From positions 1-31,279 of the IMG/VR virus record IMGVR_UViG_3300042876_000155: DNA of 31,279 nucleotides. One strand, given 5' to 3'. Both the position numbers and the translations under genes were made by a program. This document shows, in pieces, positions 1,952 to 4,215 of this stretch (its first letter is position 1; each line of letters starts with the position of its first letter). Source of the DNA: a virus. A model generated the notes under the pieces. It was not told the DNA's origin. It did no database searches and saw only the letters and a program-made list of their open reading frames with translations.

Positions 1952-2017
1952 GATTTGAATCACCAGACCAAGAGACTCATAATCACCTGGTCGTTGGTTC
2001 AAATCCAACCGGGGGTA
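1952..2017 (+). other. attP: candidate attP core containing the 3' half of a tRNA (CAT anticodon)
   Basis: Bases 1974-2017 read as a tRNA 3' half: anticodon loop CTCATAA (1976-1982, anticodon 1978-1980), stem strand TCACC, variable loop TGGTC, a perfect T-arm GTTGG/TTCAAAT/CCAAC (1993-2009), acceptor strand CGGGGGT and discriminator A, without CCA. No D-arm or matching 5' acceptor is present; only two bases of a 5' anticodon stem pair. The left flank GATTTGAATCACCAGACCA (1952-1970) is an imperfect inverted copy of the T-arm side (TGGTCGTTGGTTCAAATC, 1988-2005), centred on the anticodon loop. Integrases that cross over at a tRNA anticodon loop leave exactly this: a phage copy of the tRNA from the loop to its 3' end. 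Phage-like genes lie on both sides, which favours intact attP over attL or attR. Confidence 0.65.
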
Positions 2018-3509: not shown

Positions 3510-3917
3510 ATGCCAGCGAATGAACAGTTTCACCACATGAAGAAATACATCGGACAGCTTGAGGCCGAGCGCGACGCCGCCCTTGCCGAAGTGGCGAGAC
3601 TCAAGGACGAGCGTGACGCATCTGCAGAACAGCACATATCTGCCGTTGAGAAATGGAACGCCGCCCTTGCGCGGCTCAAGCAGGATGGATTGGAGGCGAA
3701 CGCCATAGCGCAACGGGCGCAGGTTGCGGCTGGCAAAAACAAGGACGCATTGGACGCCGCCCTTGCGCGGGAGCGGAGGGCAAAAGAGACTGCCTACCGC
3801 GAATGCGCGGCCCAAGCGTTGCGCGACTACGAAGCCGGACTATCAGCGAAGTGTGTCTATGACGCGCTCATCACGCAGGCAAACGCCCTCGCGGACGGCC
3901 CGAAGGAGGGGAAGTGA
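3510..3917 (+). CDS. coiled-coil protein, 135 aa
   Basis: The ATG at 3510 follows AAGGAGG (3498-3504) by five bases. The protein is almost wholly helical and heptad-rich: IGQLEAERDAALAEVARLKDE, then KWNAALARLKQ and ALDAALARERRAKETAYREC. It carries a repeated ALAxxxRxKxE pattern. Such proteins are common in the early regions of phages and have no assigned role. The C-terminus ends ADGPKEGK, the first copy of a repeated tail that also encodes the ribosome-binding site for the next gene, with which it overlaps (TGATG, 3915-3919). Confidence 0.75.
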   Translation: MPANEQFHHMKKYIGQLEAERDAALAEVARLKDERDASAEQHISAVEKWNAALARLKQDGLEANAIAQRAQVAAGKNKDALDAALARERRAKETAYRECAAQALRDYEAGLSAKCVYDALITQANALADGPKEGK

Positions 3918-4215
3918 TGAACGATTTACTTCGAGCGTGGGCAGCAGGCGCAATAATCGGGCTGACGATATGGTTCATGCCGGAAGCCGCCCGACAACCG
4001 CTTTTAGGTTTTTGGATTGGGTTTGTATATGCCTGCTTGAAGGCTGACGGCCCGAAGGAGGGGAACGAATGACAAGACGAAGAACCGCTCCAAAGTGCGC
4101 CTGCGGTCACACGCACCTCGCGGAAGATGAAGGATACGACGCTGGATGCTCGGTCTGTGAATGCGCTTGGTGGCATGAACCGAAGCCAAGTGCCGACGGC
4201 CCGAAGGAGGGGAAG
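3891..4215 (+). repeat. three-copy repeat encoding DGPKEG tails plus ribosome-binding site
   Basis: GACGGCCCGAAGGAGGGGAA occurs at about 3894-3913, 4046-4065 and 4195-4214, each preceded by GCG, GCT or GCC. Each copy forms the last codons of one small gene (ADGPKEG) and supplies the GAAGGAGGGG ribosome-binding site of the next. A looser fourth version (GCCCGAGCCGAAGGAGGAA, about 4533-4551) lies before the replication gene. The copies are about 150 bp apart and bracket single small genes. Confidence 0.8.
3917..4072 (+). CDS. small membrane protein, 51 aa
   Basis: Starts at ATG 3917, overlapping the previous stop, with the repeated GAAGGAGGGG site upstream. The 51 residues begin MNDLLRAWAAGAIIGLTIWF and hold two hydrophobic segments (about 8-20 and 29-42) separated by MPEAARQ, followed by the repeated DGPKEGNE tail. 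A two-pass hairpin protein of this size could be holin-like, but small membrane proteins of unknown function are also common in phage early regions. I do not recognise it. Confidence 0.6.
   Translation: MNDLLRAWAAGAIIGLTIWFMPEAARQPLLGFWIGFVYACLKADGPKEGNE

Follow-up and report, generated by a model that had tools for sequence, protein, structure and literature searches.

The window analysed here, 31,279 bases in all, is a linear virus fragment whose ends both fall within genes. All listed genes lie on the plus strand and include those for an RlpA-like protein, a DNA methyltransferase, a DnaB helicase, RusA, a terminase, a portal protein, a head protease, a major head protein, a tape measure and tail proteins, a set that identifies the source as a tailed phage. 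Matches of its proteins to named phages are remote (below 60% identity) and indicate no host, and searches of viral contigs with the ParB-like protein, the terminase, DnaB and the portal protein returned no relatives. According to the gene calls, an intergenic region of 343 nt (1809-2151) contains the whole site described below, and in the first 6.8 kb no other gap between called genes exceeds 27 nt. An RlpA-family (DPBB) protein (2152-2574) directly adjoins the site, an unusual position for cargo beside an attP. Further along, an ORF at 3510-3917 contains repeats of ACGCCGCCCTTGC (3573-3770), which are probably the repeats of a coiled-coil protein. The 20-nt sequence GACGGCCCGAAGGAGGGGAA is found in three exact copies (3894-3913, 4046-4065 and 4195-4214), each of which ends a small ORF (coding ADGPKEG) and supplies the gene that follows with its ribosome-binding site; this triplication may reflect a tandem duplication or gene shuffling at the boundary.

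Within the intergenic region, the plus strand carries the 3' half of a tRNA-Ile2(CAT), 42 nt long (1976-2017), which runs from the anticodon loop to the discriminator and lacks an encoded CCA. Its parts can be read off one after the other: the anticodon loop CTCATAA (1976-1982, with CAT at 1978-1980), the 3' anticodon strand TCACC (1983-1987), the variable loop TGGTC (1988-1992), a T-arm with a perfect stem (GTTGG-TTCAAAT-CCAAC, 1993-2009), the acceptor strand CGGGGGT (2010-2016) and the discriminator A (2017). These are the parts that the first-pass annotation had described, but it had begun the half at 1974, and the GA at 1974-1975 belongs to the 5' side of the loop. It had also left the type between Met and an Ile-lysidine tRNA. 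The CAT anticodon is confirmed, and similarity narrows the type to Ile2: the half aligns with an E. coli tRNA-Ile at 84.9% identity across 53 nt (E = 7e-7, far above chance), the anticodon of the matched gene is CAT according to ARAGORN, and the variable loop and T-arm resemble those of tRNA-Ile2 rather than of an elongator Met tRNA. The CCA would have to be added by the host if the half is used there.

That no 5' half accompanies this 3' half, as had been claimed, holds on every count. ARAGORN found no complete tRNA in the window, Rfam reported none at threshold (its tRNA model reached only 14.8 bits, the cut-off being 29), a search for the missing half found no D-arm of the TAGCTCA type, and ACCCCCG, the complement of the acceptor strand and thus the 5' acceptor strand, is absent near the site. 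A permuted or intron-split tRNA was set aside, the signature of a 5' half being absent. On the minus strand, an open frame at 1946-2131 runs antisense to the tRNA half and contains ...PRLDLNQRPGDYES...; it is likely a spurious ORF arising from the tRNA sequence.

Ten nucleotides past the end of the tRNA lies an intrinsic-terminator-like hairpin with a T-rich tail, on the plus strand (2027-2066). Its stem (2027-2056) is GC-rich with arms complementary at 10 of 10 positions, and it folds with -22.4 kcal/mol (z = -4.1). The hairpin is not listed by a scan for consensus terminators because its loop is longer than the 3-8 nt to which that scan is limited. Phage genes resume 135 nt past the tRNA end and continue onward.

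The anticodon loop is also the centre of a symmetry. On its two sides, GACCAAGAGA and TCACCTGGTC form 10-bp core sites that are inverted copies of each other at 8 of 10 positions and are centred exactly on the loop, so that the whole can be read as a putative attP core (1966-1992) with CTCATAA as its 7-bp overlap. Symmetry of this degree is equalled at 27 of the 31,219 positions compared in the window. Both a tRNA-Ile2 3' part standing without its 5' part and inverted core sites around a 7-bp overlap, the features looked for in an attP of this type, are therefore present. The proposal that the left flank is an imperfect inverted copy of the right side across the anticodon loop is likewise borne out: the longer inverted repeat, with GATTTGAATCACCAGACCA as its left arm on the plus strand (1952-1970), is matched in 17 of 5000 shuffles and by 18 of 8840 stretches taken from elsewhere in the window. 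Under laxer scoring, with the repeat extended to TGCCCCTG, these counts are 2 of 5000 shuffles and 4 of 8840 control stretches. The longer repeat is real and noteworthy, not overwhelming; core sites do not need so long a palindrome, and part of it may be fortuitous. As RNA, the 83-nt stretch is not unusual, 1045 of 3120 stretches of the window folding equally well or better, and we therefore read the symmetry as one of the DNA.

Two nested pairs of direct repeats surround this core on the plus strand. The outer pair is an exact repeat of the 14-nt CAAAGCGGACACCT (1901-1914 and 2120-2133), and inside it a repeat search found a pair of CTTTTTCTAT, possibly sites for an accessory factor, with its left copy at 1926-1935 and its right copy at 2061-2070, overlapping the terminator tail. 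Both copies of CAAAGCGGACACCT contain the heptamer AGCGGAC, which occurs at 1904, 2112 and 2123; neither strand carries it anywhere else in the window, and no other 7-mer of the window has at least three copies that all lie on one strand and within a span of 230 nt. When the intergenic region alone is shuffled, 288 of 5000 shuffles contain a 7-mer in three copies, so that the strength of the pattern lies in the exact 14-mer (any 14-nt repeat pair appears in 1 of 5000 such shuffles) and in the confinement of the motif to the site. From this one sequence, we regard the AGCGGAC repeats, which the first-pass annotation had missed, as putative integrase arm sites: a left one at 1901-1914 and a doubled right one at 2112-2133, made up of AGCGGACGC at 2112 and CAAAGCGGACACCT at 2120-2133. 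Their first base lies 78 bp to the left and 141 bp to the right of the overlap centre, and the right motif copies are 11 bp apart. Gapped scans for relatives that combine the arm motif with the T-arm gave only two chance matches, unrelated and located in complete tRNA arrays, and a search for IHF sites gave only one match, with a single mismatch.

An integrase gene usually adjoins an attP. The 31.3-kb window, which takes in 1.8 kb on the left of the site and 29 kb on its right, encodes no tyrosine integrase, no serine recombinase, no rve-type integrase or transposase domain and no HTH_17 excisionase protein, so that the integrase sought in connection with the earlier claim did not turn up in this linear fragment. 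The simplest reason is that the gene lies beyond the left end of the fragment. The site could also be an attP without an integrase of its own nearby, which would integrate at tRNA-Ile2 by means of an integrase that the host or another mobile element supplies in trans, but we consider this unlikely.

The search for a bacterial tRNA sharing the 3' half, also suggested by the first-pass annotation, came back empty: CATAANCNNNNNGTCNTTGGTTCAAATCCAANCNGGG, a relaxed CAT pattern for the host tRNA, was not matched by any of 84,980 species genomes. An attP is refuted neither by this nor by the missing integrase, given that the window is a linear fragment and that the set of genomes searched is not complete. 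Scans of viral sequences with the tRNA half found no virus sharing the site. Exact 25-nt matches to the T-arm on Pseudomonas megaplasmids were rejected, as they belong to tRNA-Gln, not to Ile2. Lone tRNA(CAT) 3' halves without 5' halves were observed on the Klebsiella oxytoca plasmid pKOR-e3cb (L007:385-435) and on plasmid 1 of Polaromonas sp. JS666 (L008:385-435); no integrase annotation lies within 6 kb of either, and these halves are probably remnants left by the attachment of other elements. A tRNA-Ile2 that ends in CTCATAATCACCTGGTCGTTGGTTCAAATCCAACCGGGGGTA provides a sequence tag by which the host could be found once its genome is sequenced.

An attR junction would likewise show a 3' half that lacks its 5' counterpart. 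There the left 1.97 kb would end one element, the tRNA half would be a piece of host DNA displaced along with its native terminator, and host DNA or a second, tandem prophage would follow. The position of the terminator just past the tRNA, typical of host tRNA genes, fits such a junction as well. The 14-nt and 10-nt repeats and the AGCGGAC copies, however, flank the core on both sides, as the two arms of an attP would; the genes that continue from 135 nt past the tRNA end are phage genes, and in trinucleotide composition the left part does not stand out from the window (rank 34 of 99). We hold an attR to be quite unlikely.

The probability is lower still that the half is a decayed tRNA gene, or a captured tRNA fragment, with no role in integration. 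This would agree with the failure to find an integrase and a host tRNA, and with a weak tRNA-like similarity that extends in the alignments about 10 nt further to the left of the loop, but the pairing of the T-stem is intact, the 5' half is missing, the break falling at the anticodon loop, and neither the core symmetry nor the flanking repeats are expected in a decaying gene. Least credible of all, and very improbable, is a functional RNA hairpin or tRNA-like phage RNA in place of a DNA recombination site. The strand from 1935 to 2017 can form a long imperfect hairpin, and a weak promoter-like match lies upstream; yet that match is at chance level, the fold is an ordinary one for the window, as seen above, and its low z-score is mostly due to inclusion of the terminator.

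We thus interpret the region from 1901 to 2133 as, very probably, an ordinary tRNA-Ile2-type attP of a temperate tailed phage, of which the window is an orphan fragment. The core symmetry, the flanking repeats, the large intergenic gap, the terminator and the precedent of the Yoshi attP (see below) all support the earlier claim of an attachment site with its crossover in the anticodon loop. Both the two core sites and the outer AGCGGAC arms would be bound by a tyrosine integrase, presumably encoded in genome sequence that the fragment lacks, and the attP would recombine with a host tRNA-Ile2(CAT) gene at its matching anticodon loop. The junction that joins the host 5' half to the phage-borne 3' half would restore the tRNA, whose transcription the phage hairpin 10 nt downstream may stop ahead of the phage genes; the other junction would retain the displaced host 3' half.

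Several known systems resemble this site to different degrees. The phages OneUp and Mollymur, which show tRNA-dependent lysogeny, target tRNA-Ile2-CAT, as the phage of the window would, but in these phages the shared core is only 9-10 bp long and a full replacement tRNA is present, whereas here the 3' half is long and the full phage tRNA gene that is the hallmark of tRNA-dependent lysogeny is absent from the window. In the layout of its putative arms, the site recalls the attPs of helper-embedded PICIs, where co-oriented, doubled motifs lie ~81 bp to the left and ~132 bp to the right of the centre (PMC10111431): the motif copies of the window are co-oriented too, lie ~80 bp to the left and 130-150 bp to the right, and show a tandem doubling. 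The motif sequences are unrelated, however, the doubling is found here on the right only, and those elements do not target tRNA genes. In the Islander survey, 2083 islands have an attP site centred on the anticodon (PMC4383910), and, as in the class A tDNA sites of that survey, the putative crossover region is the anticodon loop and the element carries the 3' tDNA fragment; unlike them, the window has no visible attL/attR pair or integrase. The mycobacteriophage Yoshi uses tRNA-Ile2-CAT with a core of 43/45 and reconstructs the tRNA (PMC10865867). Its attP (JF704115; attB-13), in which the loop starts at 34,814, likewise holds only the 3' half of tRNA-Ile2 and is intergenic, its loop CTCATAA and TGGTCG stretch are identical to those of the window, and inverted core sites surround the loop in both (symmetry at 7 of 10 positions in Yoshi, 8 of 10 here). 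Unlike our site, Yoshi encodes the CCA and has an annotated tyrosine integrase (32,954-34,225) ~0.6 kb away, and beyond the tRNA the two sequences are unrelated, as are their arm repeats. With the Yoshi attP and the 2083 Islander sites as precedents, the design is a common and well-known one that teaches nothing new on integration as such, and its recognition here marks an orphan phage fragment as very likely temperate and names its target gene, tRNA-Ile2 with the anticodon CAT.
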